Assembly: GCA_035609245.1 (NCBI GenBank)
Contig: CP141202.1
Span: forward strand, 744,001-808,000
Origin: Bacteroidales bacterium MB20-C3-3
GTDB taxonomy: Bacteria > Bacteroidota > Bacteroidia > Bacteroidales > UBA932
Length of the DNA: 64,000 bases
Direction: 5' to 3'
Shown here: positions 30,585 through 64,000 of the stretch, piece by piece
How the letters are laid out: every line of letters starts with the position of its first letter
Numbering within the stretch: the stretch's first letter is position 1
Notes under the pieces: model-generated
Told to the model about the DNA's origin: nothing
What the model saw: only the letters and a program-made list of their open reading frames with translations
Database searches by the model: none
Program-made: the position numbers and the translations under genes

Positions 30585-33020
30585 TTATTCAACTATGCGA
30601 AGTTTTGCAAATTTTAGTAAAAGTGTCTTCTGTCCGCCATCGTTAAAGGCGACTACTGCTCTCATATTGAGGACATCACCCTCTAATAAAATAATTTTTC
30701 CGTAACCAAATCGTTCATGTTCAACATTCATTCCTACCCGCAACTTTTCTACGGGGTCAGGGAAAAAGTTTTCGCGTCTAGGGGGGGGCGGGGCCGTCGC
30801 AGACGGGCCGGCGGCTGCCGGGGAGGCGGGCCTTCTGAAGGCCTCGCCGGCAGACGGCTGGGCGGAGCGTGCGGGACGCTCGCTTCGCCCGGTCGCCCCC
30901 ACTCCTCTGCCCGTACCTGACGAAAAGAGTCCTGATGAGTTTGAGCTATCGGTCCTGAAGATGGACATAACTCCATCCTCATAGGGCCAGTTGAGAAACT
31001 TGCGGTCCACCTCCTTCAAAAAACGACTTGGAGGATAGTTCACCTGTTGTCCCCAGCGAAATCTTGATTGAGCGTATGAGAGAGTAATTGCCCTCTTAGC
31101 TCTGGTAAGGGCTACATAAAAGAGGCGCCTCTCCTCCTCTATCTCCTGATCACTGCTCACACCATTAATACTTGGAAAGAGGTTATCCTCCATACCTATT
31201 ACATATACATACGGAAACTCCAAACCCTTGGCTGAGTGCACAGTCATAAGACTTACTTTATTATTCTCCTCCTTGCTGTCTGCCCCTTCATCCACAGCAC
31301 TCATAAGAGATATCTTCTCCAGAAACTCTTCAAGAAGAAGCGGTCCGGACTCCCTGTCAGGCATAAGGCCAGGATCTTCATCCGCAATCAAATCGCCATC
31401 TGAAATCTCACCGCCTGAAAGTTCTCCCTCCATCTCCTTTATTGAATTAAAGAGCTCCTCAACATTCTCCAGACGAGCCTGACCCTCGAGCGAGCTATCG
31501 GCCCTGAGATGCTCCATATAACCGGAACGCATCAGTATCTCCATTGTAATATCGTAGGCAGTAGCCGTTGAAGCCTTGCTCCCAACCTCGGCTATCAGAG
31601 CCGTAAATATTGAGAGGCGGGCGGCGGCGGCGGGCTTGATGCCAAAGGCATCAAGATCACCGGCGTGAAAGGCCTCCCACATAGAGAGGGAGGCCGCCCC
31701 CGCCGCCGCCGCCAGATAACCCATTGTCGTATCCCCGATACCCCTTGCAGGAACATTTACCACCCGTCTGAAAGCCTCATCATCCTTAGGATTAACGAGC
31801 AATCTCATATAAGCAAGCACATCCTTTACCTCCTGCCTCTCATAGAAGGAGTGGCCGCCATAAATCCTGTAAGGAACAGACCTTTTTCTCAACGCCTCCT
31901 CAACCACCCTGGACTGAGCATTAGTTCTGTAAAGAATTGCAAAATCAGAATACTCCGCTCTATCCGAGTATATTCTGTTCATAAGAGAGGAGACAACTGT
32001 AAAGGCCTCCTCCTGATCCGAATAGCCCCTTATAACCTCAATCTTCTCCCCCGCCTCAGCCTCAGAGAAGCACTCCTTGTTAAGTCTGTTGGAATTCTTT
32101 GCTATAAGAGAGTTTGCAGCATTCACAATTGTCTGCGTTGAGCGGTAATTCTGCTCAAGCTTAAACTCCTTAGCCTCCGGATAGTCCTTTCTGAAATTGA
32201 GAATATTCTCAATTCTCGCCCCCCTGAAGGCATATATACTCTGAGAATCATCCCCCACCACACACAAATTCCTGTGATTAGCAGACAACTTCTTTACAAT
32301 CAGATACTGAGAAAAGTTAGTATCCTGATACTCATCCACAAGAATAAAAGAGAACCTCTGCTGTAACTTCTCCAGCACCTGAGGAAAATCCCTTATCATT
32401 ATATTAGTATAGAGCAAAATATCATCAAAATCCATTGCACCCGCCTGCCTGCATTTCCTCTCATACAGAGCATAGATATCACCAATCTTAGGCTTCCTGG
32501 CAATTGCATCCCTCTGCATCAGCTCCCCATTTGCAAGGTATGCCTTAGCAGTTATCAAGTTGTTTTTTGCCATAGATATTCTGGAGAGTACCTCGTTTGG
32601 CTTGTACATCTTCTCATCCAGCCCCAGCTCCTTCACACAAACCCTTATTGCACTCCTGGAATCAGAGGTGTCATAAATTGTAAAACTCTTTGGGAACCCC
32701 AGAAGCTCCGCATCCTCCCTCAGGAACCTTATAAAGACCGAGTGAAAAGTCCCCATCCAGAGATATCTGGCAAGCCCCTCACCAACCATCCCTGCAATCC
32801 TCTCCTTCATCTCTTTAGATGCCTTGTTTGTGAAGGTAAGAGCAAGCACAGAGCTGGCTTTATGTCCGTGGTTTAATATATTAGCTATTCTACTGGTGAG
32901 AACCCTGGTCTTACCCGAGCCCGCTCCCGCAATGATCAACGATGGTCCTTCAAATTGCTCAACTGCCTGTTTTTGAGCACAATTCAACCCCTCAACTATA
33001 GTGGAAAAATCTCTTTTCAT
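30585..33020 (-). CDS. uvrD: UvrD/PcrA-type superfamily 1 DNA helicase
   Basis: 811 aa from ATG 33020 (MKRDFSTIVEGLNCAQKQAV); 13 extra residues from 33059 are not family-like. Motifs: Q motif LNCAQKQAV, Walker A AGAGSGKT, motif II VDEYQDTN, motif III VGDDSQSIYAFRGA, LEQNYRST, motif V TVHSAKGLEFPYVYV, motif VI YVALTRAKR. ATP-driven 3'-5' helicase for repair. The linker before the C-terminal HERFGYGKI domain, about residues 702-750, is a GC-rich Arg/Pro/Ala stretch with internal palindromes. Divergent from nqrA; a -7 box TAATTTTG lies only 7 nt upstream of the start (33027-33034), suggesting a very short leader. Confidence 0.93.
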   Translation of the reverse strand: MKRDFSTIVEGLNCAQKQAVEQFEGPSLIIAGAGSGKTRVLTSRIANILNHGHKASSVLALTFTNKASKEMKERIAGMVGEGLARYLWMGTFHSVFIRFLREDAELLGFPKSFTIYDTSDSRSAIRVCVKELGLDEKMYKPNEVLSRISMAKNNLITAKAYLANGELMQRDAIARKPKIGDIYALYERKCRQAGAMDFDDILLYTNIMIRDFPQVLEKLQQRFSFILVDEYQDTNFSQYLIVKKLSANHRNLCVVGDDSQSIYAFRGARIENILNFRKDYPEAKEFKLEQNYRSTQTIVNAANSLIAKNSNRLNKECFSEAEAGEKIEVIRGYSDQEEAFTVVSSLMNRIYSDRAEYSDFAILYRTNAQSRVVEEALRKRSVPYRIYGGHSFYERQEVKDVLAYMRLLVNPKDDEAFRRVVNVPARGIGDTTMGYLAAAAGAASLSMWEAFHAGDLDAFGIKPAAAARLSIFTALIAEVGSKASTATAYDITMEILMRSGYMEHLRADSSLEGQARLENVEELFNSIKEMEGELSGGEISDGDLIADEDPGLMPDRESGPLLLEEFLEKISLMSAVDEGADSKEENNKVSLMTVHSAKGLEFPYVYVIGMEDNLFPSINGVSSDQEIEEERRLFYVALTRAKRAITLSYAQSRFRWGQQVNYPPSRFLKEVDRKFLNWPYEDGVMSIFRTDSSNSSGLFSSGTGRGVGATGRSERPARSAQPSAGEAFRRPASPAAAGPSATAPPPPRRENFFPDPVEKLRVGMNVEHERFGYGKIILLEGDVLNMRAVVAFNDGGQKTLLLKFAKLRIVE

Positions 33021-33045
33021 TAATGGCAAAATTACAAATAATGTG

Positions 33046-33053
33046 TATCTTTG
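33046..33053 (+). promoter_or_regulatory. -7 box of the nqr operon
   Basis: TATCTTTG fits TANNTTTG, 24 nt before the nqrA ATG. No good TTTG at -33 was found. Confidence 0.5.
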
Positions 33054-33077
33054 CCGCAAATTTTTTATCCCTTTAAA

Positions 33078-39333: not shown

Positions 39334-40728
39334 CTATTTTCGATTCAAAATCCTGAGGGAGGTTGGAAGCAGATTATTTGCACGGGTGCCGATGTTCTTG
39401 ACAAAACCGAGACCTAATCCACAGTAAGTAACTCGCAGATAACCGGCTGGAGATTCAGGAAGTGAGAGAGAATCTCGGCATAAATAACTGATAGCTTGCT
39501 CCTTAGTCAGTTCAACAGAAGGGTATGGACCAGAGTAGTTAACCGAGTAAGCATCAGCATGATCCGGAGGTGCAACCATGTGTTTGCTATTGCCCTTAGC
39601 TTTAGAGTTGCCGTAAGCATTAGGTTTGGGGGCGGAACTGCGGCTGGAGTTAGAGTTTAAGTTTGATCTGGATTCAGTCTTGAGAGATGAGTTAGAATTT
39701 GAGGAAGAGGCGTCATCGGATTTACGAAGAAGGGCGAGGAAAATACCCTCTCCTTTTACCAGTCCAGGATGAAGACGAAGAGAGCCCCCTGGTGTGAGAA
39801 TTATGCCAAGGTTGTTGTTATCAGGTGTTGCTGTGTGATGGAGGGCTGCCTGAAGGTATGGACCAAGGGGTACAATTTGAGCACCGAGTGTTTGGGAGAA
39901 CCAGCTTATGTTCTCCTCGTTTTCATGCCGGTTCATTGTGCAGGTGGAGTATGCGAGGTGACCACCTGGCTCTAGTGTTTCCCAGATATCTTTAACAATT
40001 TTACGCTGACGTACAACACACTCATTTACAGCTCGCACAGACCACTCATTGATTGACTCGGGATCCTTTCTGAACATTCCTTCACCTGAGCAGGGGGCAT
40101 CGACAAGGATGAAGTCGAAGCGGTGTCCAAGTTTTGCGAAGGCCGATGGGTCAAGCGAGGTGACGGTGATGCGGGGGTCGCCCCATTTGGTGATGTTCTC
40201 CCGAAGGGTGGCGGCGCGGGAGCGGATAATTTCGTTGGCGGTGAGGCCGCCAGCACGGGCGGCAGCCGGGCCTTCGGCCGGGCTGCCCGCCGCCCCGCCC
40301 ATCATACTCGCAAGATGAGTTGTCTTACCTCCAGGCGCAGCACACAAATCCAGCAGCCTGGCAGCGCCGGCTGCAAGCGGGCGCAGCACCTCAATAATCA
40401 TCGAACTAGGCTCCTGGACATAATAGGCACCTGCGTGAAAAGCGGGATCCATTGTGAAATTAGGGCGCTCGGCAAGATAGAGGCCGTCAGGGCACCATGG
40501 GATTTGGGCTGGCCCGCCGCTCTCTGCCGGCCACCCGCCTTCGGCGGGATGGCCGGCAGCAAGCGAGTGGCCGGCTGCGGCAAGCCGAGGCCATTTGGCC
40601 GGATTCTTGCGTATAGAAGTTACAGGCGGAGTGGTGAGAATAGCCTCAGTGATTTTACCTGCGAGGTCGTTGCCCACAGCCTCGCGCAGCATTTCAGAAA
40701 ATTCCGGAGGTAGTACCCTTTCCGCCAT
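39334..40728 (-). CDS. RsmF-type rRNA m5C methyltransferase
   Basis: 464 aa from the second Met. NOL1/NOP2/sun fold: LDLCAAPGGKTTHLAS (SAM motif I), DAPCSGEGMFRKDP (motif IV, first catalytic Cys), YSTCTMNRHENEE (motif VI, second Cys), and a C-terminal RsmF-like domain (SYLCRDSLSLPES..G.L.V.Y.GLGLGFVKNIGTRANNLLP). Modifies a cytosine in 16S rRNA. Three unusual low-complexity stretches: about residues 49-80 and 142-164, GC-rich Ala/Gly/Pro inserts with hairpins, and a Ser/Asn-rich linker about 340-380. Confidence 0.9.
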   Translation of the reverse strand: MAERVLPPEFSEMLREAVGNDLAGKITEAILTTPPVTSIRKNPAKWPRLAAAGHSLAAGHPAEGGWPAESGGPAQIPWCPDGLYLAERPNFTMDPAFHAGAYYVQEPSSMIIEVLRPLAAGAARLLDLCAAPGGKTTHLASMMGGAAGSPAEGPAAARAGGLTANEIIRSRAATLRENITKWGDPRITVTSLDPSAFAKLGHRFDFILVDAPCSGEGMFRKDPESINEWSVRAVNECVVRQRKIVKDIWETLEPGGHLAYSTCTMNRHENEENISWFSQTLGAQIVPLGPYLQAALHHTATPDNNNLGIILTPGGSLRLHPGLVKGEGIFLALLRKSDDASSSNSNSSLKTESRSNLNSNSSRSSAPKPNAYGNSKAKGNSKHMVAPPDHADAYSVNYSGPYPSVELTKEQAISYLCRDSLSLPESPAGYLRVTYCGLGLGFVKNIGTRANNLLPTSLRILNRK

Positions 40729-40743
40729 CAATTAATCTTCTAT

Positions 40744-44264: not shown

Positions 44265-44299
44265 CCTGGCGGGCACCACCTAGCCTGGCGGGCACCACC
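44258..44299 (+). repeat. Tandem 19-bp duplication at the Nudix gene end
   Basis: ACCACCTAGCCTGGCGGGC occurs twice in a row and a third ACCACCT follows, running into repeat B1. The first copy contains the Nudix stop codon. Confidence 0.7.
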
Positions 44300-44434
44300 T
44301 TGCCACAGTTTTTGGCAAGTTGTTGTTTTTCTTGCACTTACTAAGTGCATTTTCTTGACAAATTCAATGCTTCTAAAAAACGCATATGGTAAATATCTCT
44401 TTATAAGACACTTGCCAAAAACTGTGGCAAGGTG
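44296..44434. repeat. Family B REPIN-like element B1 (139 bp)
   Basis: 25-bp ends 44296-44320 and 44410-44434 are perfect inverted copies beginning CACCTTGCCACAGTTTTTGG. Each end folds by itself: CTTGCCA, 7-nt loop, TGGCAAG. Interior is AT-rich and related to B2. Confidence 0.9.
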
Positions 44435-45340: not shown

Positions 45341-46204
45341 TTAAGTTTTGCACACTTTTCTTATGTTTTCAAATGACCTGGGAACCAAATACTTAATTTG
45401 CGAGTAAGTCGCATGACAGTTAAACCTTAAAGACTTAATTATAAAAGCTACCTCTTCCCTATCTATATCCCTGATTATTCGGTTCTTAAGCAATGAATTA
45501 AAATAACTAAAAACCTTATCATCCGGTGTGCGTTTCCTTAGCGGAACCTTACCATCCTTAAAAATCGGCTTAAATTCATTTACCTCTTTGTTAAGTGTGT
45601 ATGCCGATGAGTAGTTGGATAGTGCATAGGAGGCATCAACTTCAATGTATTTATCAAGAAGGTGTCTGCCACCGGAAAAATACTGGTTCGCCGAACTCCA
45701 GAAATACTCCTCGTGCACCCGGCACATATTCGCTCGTTTGGCATTGCTAAGCAGATAGAGAAAAGTCTCCTTGATTAAACTGCTTTTATAAAGCGGCGAG
45801 CTGCCGAAAGGTGTATCAAAGACCGATTTAATTACCGGATACTGTCTTTTATACCACATTGTATATCTGAACATTATCTGCCCCATAAGCCGGGTAATGT
45901 TCTCGGTTTTACACAAAAAATGGAAATGGTTATCTAATAAAATATACCCCAGCAGACTCGACCCTGTTTCCTTAAACACCTCATTAGTAATAATAAGGAA
46001 CATAATTCTATCATCATCCTTTAGAAAAACTAACCGGCTCTGATAGCCCCTGACATAGACATGAAAAAAACCACTTAGAACTCTCTTCCTCCTCCTTGCC
46101 CTTCTTTTTCCTCCGGATCTGTTTCTATTAACCTCCTTTTGAACTTTTCTCTGCATAAGAAGACTCTCAAATTTCCTTTCTATCATCTCATTAAACTCCT
46201 CCAC
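45341..46204 (-). CDS. REP-associated (RAYT-like) Y1 transposase 1
   Basis: 287 aa. IS200-like Y1 domain: a basic N-terminus (NRNRSGGKRRARRRKR), FFHVYVRGYQSRLVF, the HUH motif as DNHFHFL, and a likely nucleophile in FLYLLSNAKRANMC. A C-terminal helix-turn-helix follows (ATYSQIKYLVPRSFENIRKVC), as in RAYTs with a DnaA-like tail. Single gene, no flanking IS ends, consistent with a domesticated RAYT acting on short palindromes. Three repeat families lie within 1.1 kb. Confidence 0.78.
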   Translation of the reverse strand: MEEFNEMIERKFESLLMQRKVQKEVNRNRSGGKRRARRRKRVLSGFFHVYVRGYQSRLVFLKDDDRIMFLIITNEVFKETGSSLLGYILLDNHFHFLCKTENITRLMGQIMFRYTMWYKRQYPVIKSVFDTPFGSSPLYKSSLIKETFLYLLSNAKRANMCRVHEEYFWSSANQYFSGGRHLLDKYIEVDASYALSNYSSAYTLNKEVNEFKPIFKDGKVPLRKRTPDDKVFSYFNSLLKNRIIRDIDREEVAFIIKSLRFNCHATYSQIKYLVPRSFENIRKVCKT

Positions 46205-46972: not shown

Positions 46973-47083
46973 TTATATTACAGACAATCAGGTGTTTATA
47001 ATTATGTTTTTATAAAACTTTTTCAAAATCACATTGCTAACAGCCTTACAATGTGATATTTATACGAATATCCCACTCAAACC
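46955..47083 (-). repeat. Family A element A4 (129 bp, diverged)
   Basis: Ends GTTGACAGGGATTTTCAT and ACGAATATCCCACTCAAACC. The changed terminus (ATTCG to TTTCA) supplies the CAT that is the LolA start codon on the minus strand. Confidence 0.75.
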
Positions 47084-47084
47084 C

Positions 47085-47148
47085 CCGGCGGGCGGGAAGG
47101 CGAGCGGGCGGGCGGGCGGCGGGCGGGCCGCCCGCCCGCTTCGCGGGT
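47085..47148. repeat. GC-rich hairpin tract behind ftsK
   Basis: Almost pure G/C, repeats of GGCGGGCGGGC, then CCCGCTTCGCGGG, a perfect hairpin with a TTC loop, 2 nt from the ftsK stop. Likely a terminator-like structure and related to the in-gene TTC hairpins. Confidence 0.65.
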
Positions 47149-47149
47149 T

Positions 47150-49705
47150 CTAATCCAGACTCGCGAGTATGCGGTCAAGGGAGTTGAAGTCCGTGATGAG
47201 GACCTGGCGGGCCTTGCTACCTTCGCTTGGGCCGACAATGCCGGCGGCTTCAAGCTGGTCCATTATGCGGCCGGCTCGGTTGTATCCAAGGTTCATCCGT
47301 CTCTGGATGAGAGATGTAGATCCCTGCTGATACTGAACCACAAGTTTAGCCGCTTCGTCAAAGAGCTTATCTCGCTTGCCAAGGTCAACCTCGCCGGCCA
47401 TGGCCTCTCCCTCCTCTCCTGCATATTCAGGCAAATAGTGTGCCGTTGAGTAGCCCCTCTGATCGCTGATAAACTGTACAACTCGGTCAATCTCTTTGGT
47501 CTCAATAAGAGCACACTGCACACGGGTGAGTTCGGCACCGGACATAAAGAGCATATCTCCGCGACCGATAAGCTGATTGGCACCGGTAGTATCGAGTATG
47601 GTGCGGGAGTCAATGCTTGATATAACTTTGAAAGCGATTCGGGCTGGGAAGTTTGCTTTGATAAGGCCTGTAATTATATTAGTGGTTGGACGCTGGGTAG
47701 CTATTACAAGGTGAATGCCGATAGCCCGGGCCAGCTGGGCGAGCCTGGTCAGAGGCTCCTCCACCTCCCGCCCGGCGGTCATAAGCAGGTCTGCATACTC
47801 GTCAATAACCACTACAATAAATGGCATAAACCTGTGTCCCTTAAGAGGATTCAGTCTTCTTGAGAGGAATTTTTCATTGTACTCTTTAATGTTGCGTACA
47901 TGGGCAGTTTTCAGAAGATCGTAACGGGAATCCATCTCAATTGTCAGGGACTTGAGAGTATATACAACTTTCTGTGTATCAGTAATTATAGCCTCCTCTG
48001 CATCAGGAAGTTTTGCAAGGAAATGGTGTTCTATTTTAGAGTAGAGCGAGAGCTCAACCTTCTTTGGATCCACAAGCACAAATTTCATCTCAGAGGGGTG
48101 CTTTGTGTAAAGGAGGGAGGTAATAATTGCATTAAGACCTACAGATTTACCCTGACCGGTAGCACCGGCAACAAGCAGGTGAGGCATTTTGGCAAGGTCA
48201 AAAGTAAGAGGCTCGTTTGAAATGGTACGGCCGAGAACAATTGGGAGCTCGTAGCCGGAGTTTCTGAATTTATCCTCCATAAGCATAGTCTTGAGAGGTA
48301 CTACACTCGGCTTTGAATTTGCAACCTCAATACCCACACTGTTGGTTCCCGGTATTGGTGCGATTATACGCACACCCCTTGCGGCAAGAGACATTGCGAT
48401 ATCATCCTCAAGTCTTTTAATCTGAGATATCCTGACACCCGCAGACGGGGTGATTTCATACATAGTAACAGTTGGGCCTGTTCTGGCTGTAATTCTGTCA
48501 ATGCCTATTTTATAGTCGCCGAGAGTCTTAACAATTCTCCTCTTGTTCATCTCCAGCTCCTCCCTTGAGACCTCAAAGCGTTTGTCACGGTAGTCATCAA
48601 GCAGCTCTATGCCGGGTGATTTGTAACTTGAGAGGTCAAGTCTTGGGTCAAAAAGAGTATCAAGAGATCCGGGAGGTATATCCTTAAGGAAGTCCTGGGA
48701 GGAGTCATCTGTATCTTCAGTATTCTCGTCTTCCTGAATTGTCTCTTCACCTGAGATATCTTCGTTAAAAATATCGATTGGGGTCTCAAGTGGGATTTCG
48801 AGAGGAATTTCACCTGTGGCGGCTGCACCCGCAGCGCTTCCCGCTGCCGCCTCCGCCGCACCGGGACAGGCCGCCTCGCTCCGCTCGGCCGCCTCATCAC
48901 CCGCAACACCCCCATCACCATCAATTATCAACTCAAACGGATCCTCCGGATCCTCACCCGCTGCCGCAGCAACATCGGCACCCGCAACTGCATCGGCCTC
49001 AAGCGGCTTCTCCTTTGGTTTGCGGTGGAAAATGGCAGCAATACCCATATTGAACCAGCTCACAAAACGGTAACTGCACAAAAAGAGCCACAGGACAAGG
49101 ATTGTGGAGACCAGCAACCCGGCTCCGGTAGCGCCAATCATTGAGATAAGCCATTCATTCACATAGTAACCGTAAGAGCCCCCTGCGCCATTGCCAAACC
49201 AGTCCACAAAACGGGTAAAACCAAATATGTAGGAGAAAAATACTGAAATAATAATGGCGCCGAAAGCAGAGAGGAAAAAGAGTCTCAGAAGTCGCACCCT
49301 CTTAATTCTAAGAGAGAAAATAGCAACCGCACCAAAGAAAAATGGAATAACAAATGCGCCAAGTCCGAATAATTTTGAAATTAGCAAATTAGACCACAGA
49401 AAGCCCACCTTTCCACCACCATTCTCAACCGGAACAATATTATTCCAGAATTCAGGATTTGAAAGAAGCGACTGATCCTCGGCCCATGTGAAAATATATG
49501 ATATCAGAGCTATAAAAGTATAGACCGAGAGCCCTCCAAAGAAGAGCCCCGTAATAAGGCGTGCTGCCTCCATCCCTTTGGGCGGGGGTGCGTTTTCACC
49601 TGTTTTTGAGCGTGAAGTCCTAACCTTTGGTTTAGAAGCTGTACTTTTTGAGGTACTCTCTTTTGCGCCATTTTCTTTTGTGCCGTTTTCCTTGTTGCTG
49701 GCCAT
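47150..49705 (-). CDS. ftsK: DNA translocase FtsK/SpoIIIE
   Basis: 851 aa. Four N-terminal helices (about 45-220), a variable linker, then the motor: VAGATGQGKSVGLNA (Walker A), VVVIDEYADLLM (Walker B), and a C-terminal gamma winged helix (LIQRRMNLGYNRAGRIMDQL). Moves chromosome ends at division and activates XerCD. The linker about residues 235-298 contains a GC-rich Ala/Gly/Glu insert with hairpins (GCAGCG-CTTCC-CGCTGC). 40 nt from murA. Confidence 0.94.
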   Translation of the reverse strand: MASNKENGTKENGAKESTSKSTASKPKVRTSRSKTGENAPPPKGMEAARLITGLFFGGLSVYTFIALISYIFTWAEDQSLLSNPEFWNNIVPVENGGGKVGFLWSNLLISKLFGLGAFVIPFFFGAVAIFSLRIKRVRLLRLFFLSAFGAIIISVFFSYIFGFTRFVDWFGNGAGGSYGYYVNEWLISMIGATGAGLLVSTILVLWLFLCSYRFVSWFNMGIAAIFHRKPKEKPLEADAVAGADVAAAAGEDPEDPFELIIDGDGGVAGDEAAERSEAACPGAAEAAAGSAAGAAATGEIPLEIPLETPIDIFNEDISGEETIQEDENTEDTDDSSQDFLKDIPPGSLDTLFDPRLDLSSYKSPGIELLDDYRDKRFEVSREELEMNKRRIVKTLGDYKIGIDRITARTGPTVTMYEITPSAGVRISQIKRLEDDIAMSLAARGVRIIAPIPGTNSVGIEVANSKPSVVPLKTMLMEDKFRNSGYELPIVLGRTISNEPLTFDLAKMPHLLVAGATGQGKSVGLNAIITSLLYTKHPSEMKFVLVDPKKVELSLYSKIEHHFLAKLPDAEEAIITDTQKVVYTLKSLTIEMDSRYDLLKTAHVRNIKEYNEKFLSRRLNPLKGHRFMPFIVVVIDEYADLLMTAGREVEEPLTRLAQLARAIGIHLVIATQRPTTNIITGLIKANFPARIAFKVISSIDSRTILDTTGANQLIGRGDMLFMSGAELTRVQCALIETKEIDRVVQFISDQRGYSTAHYLPEYAGEEGEAMAGEVDLGKRDKLFDEAAKLVVQYQQGSTSLIQRRMNLGYNRAGRIMDQLEAAGIVGPSEGSKARQVLITDFNSLDRILASLD

Positions 49706-49745: not shown

Positions 49746-51212
49746 TTAGAGACGCTCTATTTTTGCCCCTATTGCGTTTAGTCTTCTGTCTATATCCTGA
49801 TACCCTCTGTCAATCTGCTCAATATTTTCAATTATTGAAGTCCCCTTTGCAGACATTGCCGCAATAAGCATTGCAATACCGGCCCTGATATCGGGAGAGA
49901 CCATCCTGGTACCCCTCAGGCAAAACTCCCTGTTGTGACCAATAATTGTTGCCCGGTGAGGGTCGCACAAAATAATCTGAGCACCCATATCAATAAGCTT
50001 GTCCACAAAAAAGAGCCTGCTCTCAAACATCTTCTGATGAATAAGAACACTCCCCTTCGCCTGAGTAGCAACCACAAGGAATACCGAGAGCAGGTCAGGT
50101 GTAAGACCCGGCCATGGCGCATCCGCAATAGTCATAATTGAGCCATCCATAAAACTCTCAATCTCATAATGATCGTGCTGAGGAATATAGATATCATCTC
50201 CTCTTCGCTCAACAGTAATTCCAAGGCGGCGGAACTGAGCAGGTATAATACCCAGCTCATCGTAGGCTACATTTTTGATTGTGATCTCGCTGCCGGTCAT
50301 GGCGGCGAGCCCTATAAAGCTGCCAACCTCAATCATATCAGGGAGGATGGTATGCTCTGTTCCGCCCAGCGACTCAACACCCTCAATAACGAGACGATTT
50401 GAGCTGATTCCGGAAATTTTCGCACCCATTCTCACAAGCATTTTGCAAAGTTGCTGAAGGTATGGTTCGCAAGCTGCATTATAAATAATTGTAGTCCCCT
50501 TTGCAAGAACAGCAGCCATGACAATATTTGCAGTACCGGTTACAGATGCCTCATCAAGAAGCATATAGGCACCATTAAGACCATCCTTTGCAGTGATCTC
50601 AAAATATGAAGCACCCTGCTGCCAGTTAAGTTTTGCACCAAGATTCTCAAAACCAATAAGATGAGTATCAAGCCTTCTTCTGCCAATCTTGTCACCGCCC
50701 GGTTTAGGCATATAGGCAAAGCCGAATCTTGCGAGCAGCGGACCGGTAAGCATCACAGAGCCACGAAGCGCGGAGGACTTCCTGCGGAACTCCTCGCTGC
50801 GGACAAAATCAAGATTGATGTTGCGGGCAGTGAAGGCGTATGAGCGGGAGATGAGGCGGGCGGCGCCGGCTTCGCCGGCAGGGCTGCCGTGGGCAGCCCC
50901 GGAAGCGGCTCGCGCCGCTTCCGCGCCGCCCGCTCCCCCGCCTGTCTCGCCTCCCCCGCCTGCGGCGGCAGGAGCCGGAGCTCCGGCCGCCGCTTCCGCC
51001 GCCGCCTCGCCCAGCTCCTCCACCACAACACCCAGATCCCCAAGCATCTCCACCAATTTCATCACATCCAGAATATCAGGCACATTATGCACAACCACCC
51101 TTTCCGGAGTAAGTAACACCGCCGATAATATTTGAAGCGCCTCATTCTTAGCACCCTGCGGAACCAACTCGCCCTTAAGCCGATGCCCGCCCTCAACTCT
51201 GAATACTGCCAT
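49746..51212 (-). CDS. murA: UDP-N-acetylglucosamine 1-carboxyvinyltransferase
   Basis: 488 aa, longer than the usual 420-435. Lys22 and Asn23 (GAKNEAL) are conserved; PGGDKIGRRRLDTH at about 171-184 replaces the active-site Cys (PGGC) with Asp174, the change known to make MurA insensitive to fosfomycin. SVTGTANIVMAAV and the C-terminal DRGYQDIDRRLNAIGAKI are family blocks. First step of peptidoglycan precursor synthesis. The extra length is an Ala/Gly/Glu stretch at about residues 68-122, encoded by GC-rich DNA with several palindromes, in an otherwise moderate-GC gene. Confidence 0.95.
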   Translation of the reverse strand: MAVFRVEGGHRLKGELVPQGAKNEALQILSAVLLTPERVVVHNVPDILDVMKLVEMLGDLGVVVEELGEAAAEAAAGAPAPAAAGGGGETGGGAGGAEAARAASGAAHGSPAGEAGAARLISRSYAFTARNINLDFVRSEEFRRKSSALRGSVMLTGPLLARFGFAYMPKPGGDKIGRRRLDTHLIGFENLGAKLNWQQGASYFEITAKDGLNGAYMLLDEASVTGTANIVMAAVLAKGTTIIYNAACEPYLQQLCKMLVRMGAKISGISSNRLVIEGVESLGGTEHTILPDMIEVGSFIGLAAMTGSEITIKNVAYDELGIIPAQFRRLGITVERRGDDIYIPQHDHYEIESFMDGSIMTIADAPWPGLTPDLLSVFLVVATQAKGSVLIHQKMFESRLFFVDKLIDMGAQIILCDPHRATIIGHNREFCLRGTRMVSPDIRAGIAMLIAAMSAKGTSIIENIEQIDRGYQDIDRRLNAIGAKIERL

Positions 51213-52486: not shown

Positions 52487-53875
52487 TTATAAAGACCAGT
52501 ACATAAACTTCGCCTCCATCTCCCTGAAGAGTCCTCTAACATCAACAAAGAGTCCCCCCTCAGCAAGCAAGGCCGATAGCCCTTTCACCCCCATCTCTCT
52601 GTACTCTTTATGAGCAACAGCAAGAATTACAGCATCATACATCCCCTCCGCCTTTGGCTCAAGCACAATTCCGTACTCATCCAGCACCTCGGCACCATCC
52701 GCCTTAGGATCAACAACATCCACCTGTAAATTGTACGACTGAAGCTCATTCACAATATCAGCCACCCGAGTATTTCTTATATCAGAGACATTCTCCTTGT
52801 ATGTGAAACCTAAGACCAGAACCCGCAATCCTGCCCTGCTGGCGGCGGGCGCAGCGGCCCCGGCCGCTGTGCCGCCCGGCCCGGCTCCTGACGGAGCCGC
52901 GCCCGCCGCCCCGCTCACCACTCGCGCCCCGAGCAACCGCTTCACCGTCTGCTTCGCAATATACCCACCCATCGAATCATTCACAAACCTCCCGCTCGCC
53001 ACCATCTGAGTATGATACTTAAGCGCAGCAGCCTTATGTACAAGATAGTACGGATCCACGCCGATGCAATGTCCCCCTACCAGCCCCGGTGTAAACGGAA
53101 GAAAATTCCATTTAGTCCCCGCAGCCTTAAGCACATCATAAGTATTTATCCCCATCCTGTTAAACAGAATCGAGAGCTCATTCATAAGCGCAATATTAAC
53201 ATCACGCTGAGTATTCTCAATAATTTTTGCAGCCTCAGCCACCTTCATTGCCGGAGCCCTGTGCACACCCGCCTTCACAACCAGCTCATAGACACGAGCC
53301 ACCAGATCAAGCGTCTCACCATCACACCCCGACACAATCTTCACAGTGTTCTGCAACGAATGCTCAGTATCACCCGGATTTATCCTCTCAGGCGAATACC
53401 CCACCTTAAAATCCACCCCACACTTCAACCCGCTGAGAGACTCAAGCACAGGCACACACTCCTCCTCGGTACACCCCGGATAAACCGTCGACTCATAAAC
53501 AACCACATCCCCCCTCTTCAAATATTTACCCACACTTTTAGTAGCACTCAACAACGGCGATAAATCAGGCTTGTTATGCCTGTCAACCGGAGTCGGCACA
53601 GCCACCACAATAAACCGAGCCCCCTTCAGCTCCGCCGGATTTGTCGTAAACGAAATCCTCCTCCCCGAAAACGAATCGGCACCAATCTCCCCGTTAGGAT
53701 CAACCCCCTTCCACAACTTCGCCACCAGCGCCTCATCCACATCCACCCCCACAACATCCACAAACCTCGCAAACTCCAGAGCCAGAGGCAACCCCACATA
53801 ACCCAACCCCACAACCGCCAGCTTCACCCTCCCCTCCTTAAGTTCACCATAAATCTTACTATATAAAATATCCAT
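52487..53875 (-). CDS. UDP-sugar dehydrogenase (WbpO/TviB/WecC type)
   Basis: 462 aa from the second Met. NAD-binding LAVVGLGYVGLPLA; catalytic Cys in GGHCIGVDPYYLVHKA; NTQRDVNIALMNELSILF; the third domain starts at VLVLGFTYKENVSDIRNTR. Oxidises UDP-HexNAc to the uronic acid for surface polysaccharide; UDP-GlcNAc/GalNAc/ManNAc specificity is not determined. An Ala/Gly/Pro insert, about residues 318-349, between helix and VLVLGF strand, is GC-rich with GGCTCC-TGAC-GGAGCC. Confidence 0.92.
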   Translation of the reverse strand: MDILYSKIYGELKEGRVKLAVVGLGYVGLPLALEFARFVDVVGVDVDEALVAKLWKGVDPNGEIGADSFSGRRISFTTNPAELKGARFIVVAVPTPVDRHNKPDLSPLLSATKSVGKYLKRGDVVVYESTVYPGCTEEECVPVLESLSGLKCGVDFKVGYSPERINPGDTEHSLQNTVKIVSGCDGETLDLVARVYELVVKAGVHRAPAMKVAEAAKIIENTQRDVNIALMNELSILFNRMGINTYDVLKAAGTKWNFLPFTPGLVGGHCIGVDPYYLVHKAAALKYHTQMVASGRFVNDSMGGYIAKQTVKRLLGARVVSGAAGAAPSGAGPGGTAAGAAAPAASRAGLRVLVLGFTYKENVSDIRNTRVADIVNELQSYNLQVDVVDPKADGAEVLDEYGIVLEPKAEGMYDAVILAVAHKEYREMGVKGLSALLAEGGLFVDVRGLFREMEAKFMYWSL

Positions 53876-53946: not shown

Positions 53947-54086
53947 CACCTTGCCACAGTTTTTGGCAAGTTGCTGTATTCCTGACACATAATAAGAGCA
54001 TTTTTTCGCTAAGCTCAACGCTTAGCAAAAAATCCTTATAGCAAATACCTCTATACCTGACACTTGCCAAAAACTGTGGCAAGGTG
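53947..54086. repeat. Family B REPIN-like element B2 (140 bp)
   Basis: Ends 53947-53971 and 54062-54086, identical to B1 ends. The interior (AAGAGCATTTTTTCGCTAAG) has its own GCTAAGC/GCTTAGC hairpin. Confidence 0.9.
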
Positions 54087-54166: not shown

Positions 54167-54270
54167 AAAAAACCCCAACCCGCACCGCCACAACCCAACC
54201 AAACCACCCATACCCGCACCGCCGCAACCACCTCTACCCGCACCGCCGCAACCCTCTGTCGCTCTTCACC

Positions 54271-54313
54271 TTAACACTTAACCCCGCGGATCATCCGCGG
54301 GGTTAAGTGTTAA
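54271..54313. repeat. Family C palindrome C2
   Basis: 21-bp perfect arms around C54292: TTAACACTTAACCCCGCGGA-T / A-TCCGCGGGGTTAAGTGTTAA. Outer partners ACCCGCACCGCCGCAAC (54235) and TTACAGCCGCACGGGT (about 54335) also nearly pair. Confidence 0.9.
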
Positions 54314-54410
54314 GCAACTCACACCCTGCGCATTACAGCCGCACGGGTCTACCTGTCTACCTGCCTGTCTACCTGCCTCCCTGGTACAGACTACACCGCC
54401 TACCCCAAAG

Positions 54411-54692: not shown

Positions 54693-54739
54693 AAAAATAC
54701 CCCAACCCGCACCGCCGCAACCCTCTGTCACTCTTCACC

Positions 54740-54782
54740 TTAACACTTAACCCCGCGGATGATCCGCGGGGTTAAGTGTTAA
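54740..54782. repeat. Family C palindrome C3
   Basis: 21-bp arms around G54761, identical to C2 apart from the central base. Its right flank GCCGCACGGGTCTACCT runs into the IS3 element, which is inserted 41 bp beyond the palindrome. Confidence 0.9.
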
Positions 54783-54864
54783 GCAACTCAAACCCTGCGC
54801 GTTACAGCCGCACGGGTCTACCTTGTGCCGTCCTGAAATAGGTTGACTCAAAAACTCAATTTTT

Positions 54865-56428: not shown

Positions 56429-57244
56429 ATGAAATTTAAGAAAAAGAGGGCGAGAAGAGTACAGGATGGTTACATACATGTTTGCATCAGGGGTAACAGA
56501 AGACATAATGTCTTCTACGACAATTCTGACAGATATGAATTTTTGGCCAGGCTTAAGTGGGCAGCAGAGCAACACAGCACAACTGTAATGGAATTTGTTC
56601 TGATGGATAATCATGTTCACCTCCTTGTTTCAACTGATAAACTTTCAATGTTTGTAAGCAGCCTTCTGATAAGCTATGTAAAATGGTATAATTTAAAATA
56701 CTCTACCTCAGGCAATTTATTTGAGAGTCCATTTTTAAGCGCTTCCAAGAATAAAACTGAATGGGCAATCAGAACATCAATGTATATTTTACAAAATCCG
56801 GTAAAAGCCGGAATTTGTAAACATCCTGCCGATTATAACTGGAGCTCATGCAGATGCCACTTTAAACGCTTCAACTCGTTTAACAAACACATTAAACTTG
56901 ACACCTCTTTATGTGATTCAGTGTTTGAAACAGAAATCAAATTTTTAAAAGAAATAGGCGAAAAAATTATAAAAAGCAGCGAACTTACAGAAAAGGAAGA
57001 ATCCATTAAAGCCAGAATTCCAGATAGTGAAGTTATTAACCACACAAATATTTATTTAAAAAAGAACCACAATTCTAAAAAAATCACTGAACTCAACAAA
57101 TTGGAAAAGATAATATTAATCAAACATTTATCTCTTAAAACCCAGGCAACAGCCAGGCAAATTGCATCCATCACTCAAGAGAACTACAGGTGGGTGCTCA
57201 CTCTCTGTAAATCAAATCCAGACAAGCTTTCGGAAGAAGATTGA
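56429..57244 (+). CDS. REP-associated (RAYT-like) Y1 transposase 2
   Basis: 271 aa. Basic start KFKKKRARR, YIHVCIRGNRRHNVFYD, HUH motif DNHVHLLV, Tyr nucleophile in MYILQNPVKAGIC followed by WSSCRCH. A C-terminal HTH, ATARQIASITQENYRWVLTLC, parallels that of transposase 1; the two proteins share plan but differ much in sequence. Followed at once by C4, D9, D10 and C5, the densest repeat cluster after 54 kb. Confidence 0.82.
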   Translation: MKFKKKRARRVQDGYIHVCIRGNRRHNVFYDNSDRYEFLARLKWAAEQHSTTVMEFVLMDNHVHLLVSTDKLSMFVSSLLISYVKWYNLKYSTSGNLFESPFLSASKNKTEWAIRTSMYILQNPVKAGICKHPADYNWSSCRCHFKRFNSFNKHIKLDTSLCDSVFETEIKFLKEIGEKIIKSSELTEKEESIKARIPDSEVINHTNIYLKKNHNSKKITELNKLEKIILIKHLSLKTQATARQIASITQENYRWVLTLCKSNPDKLSEED

Positions 57245-57286: not shown

Positions 57287-57329
57287 TTAACACTTAACCC
57301 CGCGGATGATCCGCGGGGTTAAGTGTTAA
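57287..57329. repeat. Family C palindrome C4
   Basis: Same 21-bp arms as C3, centre G57308; outer CACCCGTACCGCCGTAAC and TTACAACCGCACGGGT. Confidence 0.9.
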
Positions 57330-57625: not shown

Positions 57626-57668
57626 TTAACACTTAATCCCGCGGATGATCCGCGGGATTAAGTGTTAA
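57626..57668. repeat. Family C palindrome C5
   Basis: 21-bp arms around G57647 with AATCCCGCGG in place of AACCCCGCGG; the change is matched by GGGATT on the other arm, a compensated base pair. Confidence 0.9.
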
Positions 57669-58683: not shown

Positions 58684-59730
58684 ATGGACTCACCATTCAT
58701 TTACAACACCATTGTATCCGGTACGGATTTTATTCCCCGGAATACAGAGTGCGACAAACTCTATTCGGCAATCAAAGAACACAGGTGCGCAGCAATTTAT
58801 GAACCGCCCAAAAGCGGTAAGCAATCGCTAATCAACCATACATTAGAAAAAATCAAGGTTGAAAACTGGAAGCACCGAATCTGCAAAGTGGACCTCTTCA
58901 ATGTCCGTACAGAAGAACACCTCTTCAGAAAATGCACGGAAGAGCTCGAGAAGACCCTTCCACTTCCTCCAGGCGAAAGGCAGCCCTTCAGCACACTTCC
59001 TGAATTTCTCCGCGAAGTACAGAGAAGAGCAGAATCGGCACAAACAAATCTAATCCTCATCTTTGACGAGTTTCATGAAATCCTCAGACTTGAAGATTGG
59101 GACACCCCGCTCAGGACCCTTGAGAAAGAGCTCGAGAAGCATCAGCACCCTAACACCTCCGTTGTTTTCTGCGGCTCCTTCACAAACGCAATGAGAGTGA
59201 TATTTGACGATATCAAATTTTTCTACCATGTATGCGACCGTATCCGATTCTCAAAAATTGACGAAAAGTCCTTTACCGACTTCATCATACGCTCCTTTCT
59301 CAAGGCAGGCCGAGTAGTCTCCAAAGAGCTGGCCCTGCATATATATCGGCTTACAAACGGACAACCCTGGTACACACAGCAGCTGGCCGACATCGCCTAC
59401 AGCCTTACTCGCGGATACCTTACAGAAGCCATTATTAATCAAGCGTTTGAACTCCTTATGGAGCTTCACTCATACCGATTCAAATACCTCACCGCCCGCC
59501 TGAGCAACTACCAGATCAGCTTTCTGAAAGCCATCATTGACGGGGTAGACCGATTCAGCTCGCTGGAGGCCCTCACCACATACAACCTCCAGTCATCGGC
59601 CAATGTAAACCGAATCAAAGACGCCCTCACCAAAAAGGAGATCATTGAATTCAGCACCAAGACCCACCGCATAAATCACTTCCTGGACCCACTTTACGAA
59701 ACCTGGCTCAGGACAAGATACTTCGTCTAA
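58684..59730 (+). CDS. STAND/archaeal-type AAA ATPase
   Basis: 348 aa. Opens with GTDFIPRNTECDKLYSAI, the entry strand of archaeal-type ATPases; Walker A appears as EPPKSGKQS, Walker B as LILIFDEFHEI, then VFCGSF sensor. A C-terminal winged-helix-like part ends the protein (INRIKDALTKKEIIEF-like, DPLYETWLRTRYF). Conserved in Bacteroidota; cellular role unknown. GC-rich hairpins and B3 follow its stop directly. Confidence 0.8.
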   Translation: MDSPFIYNTIVSGTDFIPRNTECDKLYSAIKEHRCAAIYEPPKSGKQSLINHTLEKIKVENWKHRICKVDLFNVRTEEHLFRKCTEELEKTLPLPPGERQPFSTLPEFLREVQRRAESAQTNLILIFDEFHEILRLEDWDTPLRTLEKELEKHQHPNTSVVFCGSFTNAMRVIFDDIKFFYHVCDRIRFSKIDEKSFTDFIIRSFLKAGRVVSKELALHIYRLTNGQPWYTQQLADIAYSLTRGYLTEAIINQAFELLMELHSYRFKYLTARLSNYQISFLKAIIDGVDRFSSLEALTTYNLQSSANVNRIKDALTKKEIIEFSTKTHRINHFLDPLYETWLRTRYFV

Positions 59731-59739
59731 ACCCGTGGC

Positions 59740-59830
59740 CGGCGGGCAAGAGCCTGGAGGCCGGGCTTCGCCCCGCCTCCGGCCCGCAGACAGCGGCCGG
59801 CTTTCGCCCGCCGCTGTCTGCCGCGCCAGG
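59740..59830. repeat. GC-rich hairpin tract with TTC loops
   Basis: Two hairpins: GGAGGCCGGGC-TTC-GCCCCGCCTCC (about 59757-59781) with one mismatch, and CAGACAGCGGC ... GCCGCTGTCTG (11-bp perfect arms, about 59788-59821). Same structure type as inserts inside murA and the rRNA methyltransferase gene, but here intergenic. Confidence 0.75.
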
Positions 59831-59831
59831 A

Positions 59832-59936
59832 CACCTTGCCACAGTTTTTGGCAAGTAATTGCTAATCTGAGATTTAGAATAAGCATTTTTATAAGCACCT
59901 CTTTGAGATCAACTTGCCAAAAACTGTGGCAAGGTG
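59832..59936. repeat. Family B REPIN-like element B3 (105 bp)
   Basis: Ends 59832-59856 and 59912-59936, identical to B1 ends. The interior equals the reverse complement of B4 with about 34 bp missing from the middle. Confidence 0.9.
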
Positions 59937-60546: not shown

Positions 60547-60552
60547 TATTTG

Positions 60553-61456: not shown

Positions 61457-61470
61457 CAGTAATTAGTTTA

Positions 61471-61627: not shown

Positions 61628-61758
61628 GGTTTGACAGGGATATTCGCATATGTGCTTATAAATCTAGCAATTGCAAATTGCTTTTTGAAAAACTCTTTAA
61701 AAAACCAATTTCTAAACACCTAACTACCTGTTAGATAAACGAATATCCCTGTCAAACC
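61628..61758 (+). repeat. Family A element A5 (131 bp)
   Basis: GGTTTGACAGGGATATTCG to CGAATATCCCTGTCAAACC; interior shares AAAAAACCAATTT and CCTGTTAGATAAACG with A3. Only 9 bp separate it from B4. Confidence 0.88.
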
Positions 61759-61767
61759 CGGCCGGTT

Positions 61768-61906
61768 CACCTTGCCACAGTTTTTGGCAAGTTGCTTTCA
61801 AAGAGGTGCTTACAAAAAGGTTTTTTTGATAATTGTGGGAATGCCTAAAAAATGCTTATCCTAATTCTCAGATTAGCAATTACTTGCCAAAAACTGTGGC
61901 AAGGTG
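61768..61906. repeat. Family B REPIN-like element B4 (139 bp), overlapping the ubiX stop
   Basis: Ends 61768-61792 and 61882-61906, identical to B1. The right end, on the minus strand, encodes the last eight residues of UbiX (HLATVFGK); the stop TAA uses its last base. Confidence 0.9.
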
Positions 61907-62542
61907 CATCCACCGCTGCTCTTCCGGCAGGGGATAGATCCGGGCGATTGAGAGGATGCGATATACAAATTGAGTAATAACTTGATTAATATCACTTTGC
62001 CCAACAGCATAAAATGCGGGGGAGGCGGGGGCAATTATGGCGCCGGCTTCGGTGAGGGTGGTCATGTTGCGGAGGTGGATGAGGGAGTAGGGTGTCTCGC
62101 GGGGGACGATAATCAGAGGGCGGCGCTCCTTCAGCTGGACATCGGCAACGCGACAAATGAGGTCATCAGAGGTGCCCGCGGCAATCCTGGCCAGAGTACC
62201 CATTGTGCATGGTATGATTATGAAGGCGTCAGGGGCGTTGGAGCCCGAGGCGTTTCTGTTGTAGTAGGTGTCGTTTGGGGTTAGGCCGAGAGGGAGGGGC
62301 AGTCCGGTTTCGTGGGGGTAGACCTGGCGGGCGGTGTCGGTGAAGATGAGGTCAAGGTCGATGCGGGGTGCGGAGGCGGGAGCCCCCGGGGCACCCGCCT
62401 CTGCACTAGCGGCGGTTTGCAGGTGGCGGACGACCTCAATTATGCGGGCGGCGTAGATCTGGCCGGAGGCACCGGTGACGCCAATCACCAGGCGGCGTGC
62501 CGCAGGCGCTGCGCCCGCGGCCGCAAGGGTGTTGCTTTCCAT
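61880..62542 (-). CDS. ubiX: UbiX-family flavin prenyltransferase
   Basis: 220 aa. VIGVTGASGQIYAARIIEV is the FMN-binding start, FIIIPCTMGTLARIAAGTSDDLICRVADVQLKERRPLIIVPRETPYSLIHLRNM the conserved centre, and RIYPLPEEQRW the usual end. Makes prenylated FMN for UbiD decarboxylases. Two Ala/Gly/Pro stretches (residues about 2-16 and 44-62) are unusual additions in GC-rich DNA. After EEQRW, MHLATVFGK and the stop come from repeat B4. Confidence 0.92.
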   Translation of the reverse strand: MESNTLAAAGAAPAARRLVIGVTGASGQIYAARIIEVVRHLQTAASAEAGAPGAPASAPRIDLDLIFTDTARQVYPHETGLPLPLGLTPNDTYYNRNASGSNAPDAFIIIPCTMGTLARIAAGTSDDLICRVADVQLKERRPLIIVPRETPYSLIHLRNMTTLTEAGAIIAPASPAFYAVGQSDINQVITQFVYRILSIARIYPLPEEQRWMHLATVFGK

Positions 62543-62546
62543 GGCG

Positions 62547-64000
62547 TTATTTTTTAGGCTGGATCTCGAGAAGGGCGACGCGGCCGTCCATTGAGCTTAC
62601 AAGGAGGCGGCCGGCGCCTACGGGCTGCACAAGGTTGATGAGTGCACCGGAGAAAGGAATCACACCCGCAAGAGAGCCATCGGCCTCATTAAGAATAAAG
62701 ATATTCCCCTTGTCGGTAGGTATGAAGATGTAGCCATAGGCGGCTGTGATGGGCGAAGGGGCAATCTCGTAACCGTAACCGGTGTGGGTGGACCAGAGAC
62801 GAACCGATTTGTCTGCATTCGGAACCGGTCCATTAAATTCAGCATCGGTACGGTACGCGAAAACTGTGTCCTGCATGGTTTTGATGTAGAGGGTATTGCC
62901 ATCCGGCGAGAGGCCGACAGATTCGCGTCCGCCTTTTGCACGCCAGAGCTCTTTACCGGTGGCAGCATCAATTGCGTGGGTCATACGCTCGGGAGTTGCA
63001 ATAAATACCTTACCATTGGCTACAAGTGGCCATACAGCTGCAGGAGATAAACCCCTACCCTTGTTGTTTGTCCAGCTCCAGAGCAGTGAGCCCGATTTTG
63101 GATCCAGTTTGTAGAGGGTAGAGCCCCAGCTTCCAAAATAGACACCATCGTTATCAACAAAGGCCTTTGACTCCACAAAACTCTTAACATCGTTAAACTC
63201 CCATACAGGTTTGCCGGTATTTATGTCAAGAGCACGGAAGATGTTGTCAGAGGCACCTATGTATACAATATTGTTGTGAATAGTGGGCGAACCGAGAACA
63301 GACTTATTTGCTTTGGTTTTCCAGATAAGCTTTCCATTGTCTTTATCCAGACAATATATATAGGTATCGGTGGCACCGAAAATTATCTTGTTGTCGTGTA
63401 TCGCAGGGGTGGAGAAGACCTTGGAGCCGGTGACAAAGCTCCAGCGGGGCTTCGCAGCTGCGGTAGCTGCAGGTGCTGCGGCCGGCGCCGCGCTTCGCGC
63501 GCCTTTGCTACCGGCTTTGCCGGTCGCGCCGGCCGCCGCATCAAACGCCTTCACCTCACCATTGGCATTCACCCAGTAAATTCTACCCTTAGCTGCACCT
63601 GAGGTAGCAGGATCCATAACAGCAGCAGAACCAATATCGGAGTTATCCTGGTAATTGAAAAGTACTTTGTGGGCAAATTTCGGGAGCGGAGTATTCATCT
63701 TAAGAGTGTGCCAGGGCTTTTTCTCTACACCGCCTGCCCTCTCGACAAATGATATATTACCGGAGCTCTTGTCAAAAGTTATGATGTTGTAGCCATGGGC
63801 CCCTTTCCCTGCACGCAGGTTCGAGCGGCCCATCACCCCGCGGATGTTTGTCAGCGGGAGATATTGCGCCCGGGAAATTTCTGCACGAAGATTTAAACCT
63901 GCAGGTGAGGCGGCCGGCTCTCCCGCCGCCTCCACCTTGTAATTATATGCCCTGTTATTGTGCCCGTGTCCGCACAAAGCAACCTCAACATTCAATCTTG
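62547..64000 (-). CDS. Metallophosphoesterase / PQQ-like beta-propeller protein (5' partial)
   Basis: The frame is open to the window edge. The first visible residues LCGHGHNNRAYN are the C-terminal GHxH metal motif of calcineurin-like phosphoesterases; the rest (about 480 aa) is a PQQ-type eight-blade propeller with repeats such as DKDNGKLIWKTKANKSVLGSPTIHNN and DINTGKPVWEF. Fusions of these two domains occur in Bacteroidota periplasmic proteins; signal peptide is outside the window. An Ala/Gly-rich insert between blades (nt 63450-63545) carries CCGGC-TTT-GCCGG. Confidence 0.85.
   Translation of the reverse strand, partial: RLNVEVALCGHGHNNRAYNYKVEAAGEPAASPAGLNLRAEISRAQYLPLTNIRGVMGRSNLRAGKGAHGYNIITFDKSSGNISFVERAGGVEKKPWHTLKMNTPLPKFAHKVLFNYQDNSDIGSAAVMDPATSGAAKGRIYWVNANGEVKAFDAAAGATGKAGSKGARSAAPAAAPAATAAAKPRWSFVTGSKVFSTPAIHDNKIIFGATDTYIYCLDKDNGKLIWKTKANKSVLGSPTIHNNIVYIGASDNIFRALDINTGKPVWEFNDVKSFVESKAFVDNDGVYFGSWGSTLYKLDPKSGSLLWSWTNNKGRGLSPAAVWPLVANGKVFIATPERMTHAIDAATGKELWRAKGGRESVGLSPDGNTLYIKTMQDTVFAYRTDAEFNGPVPNADKSVRLWSTHTGYGYEIAPSPITAAYGYIFIPTDKGNIFILNEADGSLAGVIPFSGALINLVQPVGAGRLLVSSMDGRVALLEIQPKK

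Follow-up and report, generated by a model that had tools for sequence, protein, structure and literature searches.

In-frame GC-rich hairpin stretches in housekeeping genes, concentrated in one chromosomal zone of a Bacteroidales genome

Mitochondrial double hairpin elements are GC-rich, hairpin-forming sequences that occur inside genes and are thought to be mobile. In bacteria, Rickettsia palindromic elements (RPE) and intragenic repetitive extragenic palindromes (REPs) with GTAG/CGTC tags place palindromic DNA in frame in housekeeping genes, those of UvrD/Rep-type helicases included, as outlined in PMC3733652. Template switching has been reported to create and perfect hairpin stems (PMC8794818) and to alter coding DNA (PMC8604942). 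The window analyzed here comprises the 64,000 bases at 744,001-808,000 of the 2.38-Mb single-contig genome of Bacteroidales bacterium MB20-C3-3 (genome coordinate = window coordinate + 744,000); it holds eight stretches of 74-86% GC, in frame, in seven housekeeping genes. Among the titles and abstract openings listed for in-frame palindromes, quasi-palindromes, low-complexity inserts in Bacteroidetes housekeeping genes and regional insertion rates, none described such inserts or such a zone. We tentatively favor, at somewhat less than an even chance, a chromosomal zone in which insertion by slippage and template switching has been chronically raised across the genus, and in which fold-back switching has built and perfected GC-rich hairpins in the closest relatives. 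The genus set was 25 genomes, this one (G000) included; its murA product was 80% identical to that of the metagenome-assembled genome (MAG) HGW-Bacteroidetes-8 and 65-69% identical to those of MAGs named Alistipes.

The stretches had been proposed in a sequence-only reading of the same DNA, and all were present in the seven genes where it had placed them, with the frame kept. The DNA folding energy of each stretch was scored against 200 dinucleotide shuffles (z), and coding stretches were also scored against permuted codons (Table 1). Seven of the eight coding stretches beat the dinucleotide shuffles (no more than 2/200 did as well) and gave z of -2.0 to -3.6 under codon permutation; the ftsK stretch folded no better than chance (77/200 shuffles as good; codon permutation z = -1.1). 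The same type had been described between genes, which held for the intergenic pair at 59730-59840, while the stretch at 47080-47150 was at chance level (19/200 shuffles as good). GC-rich hairpins (stem >=6, GC >=80%, loop 3-6) numbered 22 in the window; three dinucleotide shuffles, run in blocks of 300 bases so as to keep local GC, averaged 1.3. High GC alone therefore does not produce them. Ten of the 22 lay in the named coding stretches, and four were alternative, overlapping registers of a single palindrome (47.1 kb). Twenty other 20-kb stretches held 14 such hairpins together, five of them at 840-860 kb. In the predicted folds of five coding stretches (uvrD, rlmMT a, murA, ugd and pqq) an outer stem encloses two or three hairpins. 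A TTC or TTT loop, thought to be common to many, was found in a minority (5/28 hairpins with stem >=5, in ten stretches). The sole Rfam match over the cut-off in the window was a tRNA at 5297, with no known structured RNA at the stretches. What was observed is thus real and extends further than first described, with the near-confinement of the stretches to one region and the outer-stem architecture as additions to it.

Most genome-wide counts were made on a sample of 816 kb (34% of the genome), the window included. Of 1,283 GC-rich 60-mers (60-base positions with GC >=72%), 1,216 lay in the 120 kb at 760-880 kb, and across the whole genome, runs of 24 bases made up of G and C alone occurred only at 791.1 and 863.9 kb. 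The zone covers ~110 kb (genome 774-884 kb, starting at window 30 kb and running past the end of the window) and extends to either side of a surface-polysaccharide cluster; its edges at ~774 and ~884 kb are approximate, with few genes comparable on the right. GC hairpins with a stem of 8 numbered nine in the 110-kb zone (three being registers of one) vs. six in 706 kb elsewhere. Tandem-repeat bases per 10 kb averaged 160 in the zone (9 bins) vs. 29.7 in 63 control bins (p = 1.5e-6), the controls excluding a CRISPR bin and bins near genes for REP-associated tyrosine transposases (RAYT). The mid-zone cluster starts at 808.8 kb and contains Polysacc_synt_2, Poly_export, Wzz, Epimerase_2, Polysacc_synt and Bac_transf genes. 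In an alignment of three genomes (this one, G017 and G001) the cluster genes were nearly constant in length (1/5 with a difference of >=8 aa), as would be expected if they are often replaced; metH, beyond the cluster, likewise carried inserts. Location of the zone at the replication origin or terminus was rejected from rRNA direction and the wider GC skew of the sampled stretches, which together would place these elsewhere despite a skew flip within the zone in G000 and G001, and loss of mismatch repair was rejected as a cause, as the genome has MutS1. Outside the zone, a probable CRISPR array extends from genome 2,193,318 to ~2,198,100 (L144; 74 copies of the repeat core, ~64-67 bp spacing).

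If the region is hot for recombination, GC-biased gene conversion could push neutral loops to extreme GC, with hairpins as a by-product. Polysaccharide loci are recombination-prone places in other bacteria, the region flanks such a locus, and third-position GC (GC3, whole-ORF, inserts counted) formed a hump over the left part of the zone (0.46-0.52 at 770-820 kb; 0.36-0.42 leftward, with one single-gene bin at 0.31). Further right, GC3 was 0.34-0.42 at 820-850 kb and rose mildly beyond the cluster (0.42-0.45 at 860-890 kb). Against gene conversion stand the hairpins in excess of local-GC shuffles, the mildness of the GC3 rise right of the cluster, and the inserts in the G001 zone, which has no clear rise in GC; we consider it unlikely as the explanation, though not to be dismissed lightly.

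Relatives, too, carried inserts at these loops of these genes, within the syntenic region that surrounds the polysaccharide locus, but the inserts were different and frequently consisted of tandem repeats; conservation thus lies in the insert sites and the region, with the hairpin as one of the forms that an insert takes. The methyltransferase had PVAEKP-type tandem repeats in the loop of stretch b in G004 and SSDHSSAN-type repeats in its loop in G001, the dehydrogenase loop had AGIQAGNQ-type repeats in G008, and the UbiX loop had DAYTERLQA-type repeats in G009. Tandem repeats of the single-contig genome G001 were concentrated at 1,686-1,800 kb, the home of its murA, ftsK and uvrD (324 tandem-repeat bases per 10 kb in 12 bins of the syntenic zone vs. 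31.8 in 50 control bins, p = 4.4e-6). The polysaccharide flanks of G009 had 304, 381, 495, 1,027 and 207 tandem-repeat bases per 20 kb, the middle of the cluster 72 and 45, and five control stretches 0-193. In the three-genome alignment, 10/20 genes at 774-809 kb differed in length by >=8 aa vs. 6/53 in the left flank (p = 0.0009), with 85.3 vs. 14.9 indel residues per 1000 core residues. Hairpin inserts here, together with inserts that in relatives are often simple repeats, point away from a family of hopping palindromes and towards a hot zone of mutation that is local and long-lived.

Stem-8 GC hairpins were also found in the zone stretches of G004 (3 in 98 kb), G011 (3 in 54 kb), G010 (1 in 10 kb) and G017 (2 in 80 kb); there were none in those of G007, G006, G012, G003, G008 and G023, where 8-40 kb each gave little power. 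Within the alignment made, the nearest genomes by MurA identity, a ranking and not a tree, were G004, G010 and G017. The uvrD linker was multi-arm both here and in G004, where it had three arms of mostly different sequence, and the FtsK linkers of G011 and G010 carried a long palindrome, perfect and >20 bp in G011 and with mismatches in G010. One both-sided base-pair change was found in each of three comparisons: in the murA structure common to this genome and G004, in ugd between the same two genomes (with G004 as reference), and in the ftsK palindrome between G011 and G010 (p = 0.007-0.06 in five of six reference choices). On these alignments, the joint change of both arms between relatives is suggestive. 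Such changes, and the frame being kept in eight of eight stretches, are also what would be seen if the inserts were selected, as a hairpin acting in mRNA or DNA or as a functional Ala/Gly/Pro peptide. As length, sequence and structure vary between species at the same loops, and the MurA insert is disordered in the model described below, selection is considered very improbable.

The inserts sit where orthologues are shorter, as the sequence-only reading had anticipated from the loops of family members, and the corresponding stretches were missing or different in the orthologues aligned. The MurA loop had 65 residues here and 18-66 in 19/19 genus loci (one incomplete locus was dropped, and five genus genomes had no locus), vs. 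exactly 12 in 41/41 loci outside the genus. The latter were 21 other-genus loci of the family (the best-scoring; 71 other-genus genomes matched) and 20 further Bacteroidota loci (L025-L044 of 80), some of which may belong to the same family. For MurA only, the aligned loci indicate that the long loop is restricted to the genus. The AlphaFold placement that had been proposed was made for MurA, where the insert was modelled as a disordered, low-confidence loop between two strands (pLDDT <50 at residues 70-119; block-mean pLDDT 27-39 at residues 71-120). Linkers of FtsK and UvrD are variable in many bacteria, which would suit ordinary low-complexity linkers; an assembly artefact was considered together with this possibility. 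Against this pair of explanations stand the fixed MurA loop in the loci outside the genus, a separate same-species assembly (G016), whose uvrD hairpin stretch differs by one base, and the sister species G004, which has the same murA structure and part of the ugd structure. The pair is considered very improbable.

The G016 stretches examined covered only a small part of the zone, and murA had no match there. Within one stretch lying well inside the zone, four gaps of 72-276 bases separated G016 from this genome in 4.7 kb aligned; the stretch at the uvrD end had one 28-base gap and six others had none (one, 881,969-885,896, reaches the right edge of the zone), a contrast that is biased because these others were cut at BLAST breaks. 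At the left end of the zone, an intergenic palindrome at genome ~774,370 (window ~30,370) is perfect in G016 and has two neighboring mismatches in G000.

Mobile palindromic elements of the REP/RPE or mitochondrial GC-cluster type, perhaps moved by RAYT, could have been inserted in frame and then have diverged, and in-frame REPs are reported for other bacteria (PMC3733652). Five Y1-transposase-like genes were found in the genome, three in the zone (789.8, 800.5 and 843.2 kb) and two elsewhere. The Pfam cut-off was reached by 3/5 genes, of which one is among the three in the zone, and the NCBIfam curated cut-off by 0/3 scanned. Palindromic families flank Y1-type genes (Table 1): the gene at 843 kb lies between two copies of family A, the inverted ends of which are mostly ~110 bp apart, and 24/27 genome-wide copies of these ends (<=2 mismatches) were at 788-868 kb. 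A Y1-type gene was also present within ~11 kb of murA in 11 of the 20 other members of the genus for which murA was matched. Outside the zone, 10-kb stretches centred on RAYT genes were mildly richer in tandem repeats (mean 88.8, n = 12, vs. 31.4, n = 149; p = 0.015), with the top values in G009 and G000; 5/12 were below the control mean and one (G017:C6:220192) was at the edge of the zone. RAYT proximity was not retained as the sole cause, for which this comparison gives weak support.

Sequence comparison within the genome does not bear out mobile elements. BLAST of the ten stretches against the 816 kb (E 1e-3) returned self-matches only and no copies, the RAYT-linked families included. Between stretches (E 0.01) there were 12 matches of 12-58 bases (72-100% identity, E 4e-5 to 0.01), the best from murA to rlmMT a (58 bases, 74%, E 4e-5); these weak matches, which could be taken as traces of a family, are read as shared composition. 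A GTAG/CGTC tag lay within 8 bases, on either strand, of 1/28 hairpins. Like RPE, the stretches are in frame in protein genes and, in 7/8 coding cases (ftsK excepted), self-complementary beyond composition; no family sequence was shared, and no genome-wide dispersal was seen in the 34% sampled for 60-mers or in the whole genome for pure G/C runs. As REP/REPIN systems do, the genome has RAYT genes, and the tag beside the palindrome is nearly lacking. RPE or REP membership was rejected on the lack of copies in the sampled genome and the near lack of tags. The likeness to Rickettsia elements that had been suggested stands for hairpin-forming, in-frame inserts at tolerated loops, denser than in local-GC shuffles, and falls for a sequence family and dispersal. 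With the same sites filled by tandem repeats in relatives, the element reading is unsupported by sequence, and we judge it unlikely while still giving it some weight.

Table 1. Features of the window (window coordinates; z, folding energy vs. dinucleotide shuffles unless stated otherwise)
Feature	Position	Strand	Remarks
uvrD: multi-hairpin GC-rich stretch in linker of UvrD/PcrA helicase (gene 30585-33059)	30775..30915	-	z -4.8
rlmMT a: GC-rich hairpin stretch in RsmF-like rRNA methyltransferase (gene 39334-40731)	40215..40310	-	z -2.8
rlmMT b: second GC-rich hairpin stretch of the same methyltransferase	40495..40600	-	z -3.4
ftsK: GC-rich stretch in FtsK linker	48810..48905	-	z -0.3; folding at shuffle level
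murA insert: three hairpins inside an outer stem, and one further hairpin	50846..51015	-	z -3.4
ugd (UDP-sugar dehydrogenase) insert: inner hairpins in 12-bp outer stem	52835..52925	-	z -3.7; partly common to G004
ubiX insert: single long hairpin	62357..62415	-	z -4.6
pqq (PQQ/BamB-like protein) insert: two inner hairpins in outer stem	63440..63545	-	z -2.6; codon permutation z -3.6
Pair of long GC hairpins, intergenic	59730..59840	.	z -4.1
GC hairpin, intergenic	47080..47150	.	z -1.4; within shuffle range
RAYT1, REP-associated tyrosine transposase-like	56429..57244	+	Pfam Y1_Tnp 36.8 bits, over cut-off; NF047646 47.7 bits, curated cut-off of 80 not reached
RAYT2, second, diverged Y1-transposase-like	45341..46204	-	weak: Pfam 21.3, NCBIfam 20 bits, both under cut-off
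Family A element, 22-base inverted ends	44299..44431	.	window copies also 53950-54083, 59835-59933, 61771-61903
Family B element, perfect 28-bp palindrome	30093..30151	.	longer spaced copies ~39097, ~44591, ~61631
Family D palindrome near RAYT1, perfect 22-bp arms round one base	54270..54314	.	others 54739-54783, 57287-57329, 57626-57668 (arms 21-22)

Three further observations concern these genes and families. The family A element at 61771-61903 overlaps the end of ubiX, where its terminal inverted repeat supplies the codons of the final seven residues (LATVFGK) and the beginning of the stop codon. An ORF for an integrase-core (rve) transposase lies inside the zone beside RAYT1 (window 55458-56159). 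The Y1-type gene at 1,285,280 is flanked by a different inverted-end family (GCCTCAGAGGAAAAGTGTCAAAC; genome 1,284,650-1,285,700), which suggests one cognate palindrome family per Y1-type gene.

Under the reading of a raised insertion rate, replication slippage and template switching would chronically increase small insertions across the ~110-kb zone throughout the genus. Essential genes would retain those insertions that preserve the frame and lie in exposed loops or linkers, and the loops would grow. In several relatives the inserts are tandem repeats, which replication slippage explains. Here and in the closest genomes by MurA identity (G004, G011, G010 and, weakly, G017) the inserted DNA is GC-rich, and fold-back template switching would then account for short-looped hairpins with perfect arms, and for hairpins nested inside others, in the absence of repeat copies. 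The zone itself may owe its activity to recombination round the polysaccharide locus, with a GC bias, possibly together with its RAYT genes as a single-strand nuclease. A bolder version, in which a synteny-fixed, genus-wide zone is an insertion machine run by a resident RAYT-type nuclease or by programmed recombination of the polysaccharide locus, lengthening the loops of essential proteins and writing self-perfecting multi-arm hairpins in one group, is considered distinctly unlikely.

Several results weigh against a raised insertion rate in this zone as the explanation. The zone of G017 was barely enriched in repeats (125, 0, 114 and 28 bases in four 20-kb stretches; 0-162 outside), though its proteins nonetheless carry inserts, and the zone stretches of G001 (130 kb) and G009 (140 kb) had no stem-8 GC hairpins. 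In the three-genome alignment, two genes only were tested right of the polysaccharide cluster, of which one was length-variable, and beyond 884 kb the count was 0/1. The contrast with the left flank shrank with the identity cut-off (4/9 vs. 3/31 at >=65%; 1/5 vs. 1/18 at >=75%), so that tolerance intrinsic to the genes explains part of it. All six length-variable genes of the left flank were at 708-725 kb, near dnaA, and the zone is therefore not the sole such place. Covariation of the arms is thin, with one both-sided pair per case; for ugd, with this genome as reference, there was none and five pairs were broken, and selection on structure would leave the same joint mark. A loss of SbcD, of the hairpin nuclease SbcCD, was also weighed as a cause: the SbcD profile had no match in this genome and was over the cut-off in 3/24 genus genomes, but also in 0/3 other genera of the family and in 8/18 genomes of other families. 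As scores under the cut-off extend far beyond the genus, the absence does not single it out, and SbcD loss was rejected as the specific cause; at most, the lack of SbcD permits palindromes.

Genome 708-725 kb, adjoining dnaA, is a second, smaller cluster of length-variable proteins in its own right.

If a raised insertion rate is correct, this conserved zone, in which murA, ftsK, uvrD and other genes would go on gaining in-frame loops, would serve as a natural experiment on how insertion varies by region within one bacterial chromosome and on the extent to which essential proteins accommodate inserts. It would also bear on the origin of perfect hairpins without selection, a question posed for RNA stems in PMC8794818.

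We regard the inserts as probable products of known mutational processes whose restriction to one region and one lineage is unusual. With RPE and intragenic REPs they share palindromic DNA in frame in housekeeping genes, lengths of tens of codons and the presence in UvrD/Rep-type helicase genes; those are repeated families with a shared sequence, whereas the stretches here have no copies in the sampled genome, nearly lack tags and lie almost entirely in one zone. RAYT/REPIN systems are resembled in the Y1-transposase-like genes of the zone and their flanking palindromic families, but the GC stretches do not belong to these families (A-D). Mitochondrial double hairpin elements are alike in being GC-rich, hairpin-forming and located in genes, and unlike in being organellar and thought mobile; the stretches here gave no sign of copying and vary in hairpin number and in having an outer stem. 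The likeness to quasi-palindrome or template-switch mutagenesis lies in reverse-complement arms made in one event, in arms kept matched and in the presence in coding DNA, and the difference, if our reading is correct, would be that the events are concentrated in one zone over the time of a genus and have built multi-arm structures.

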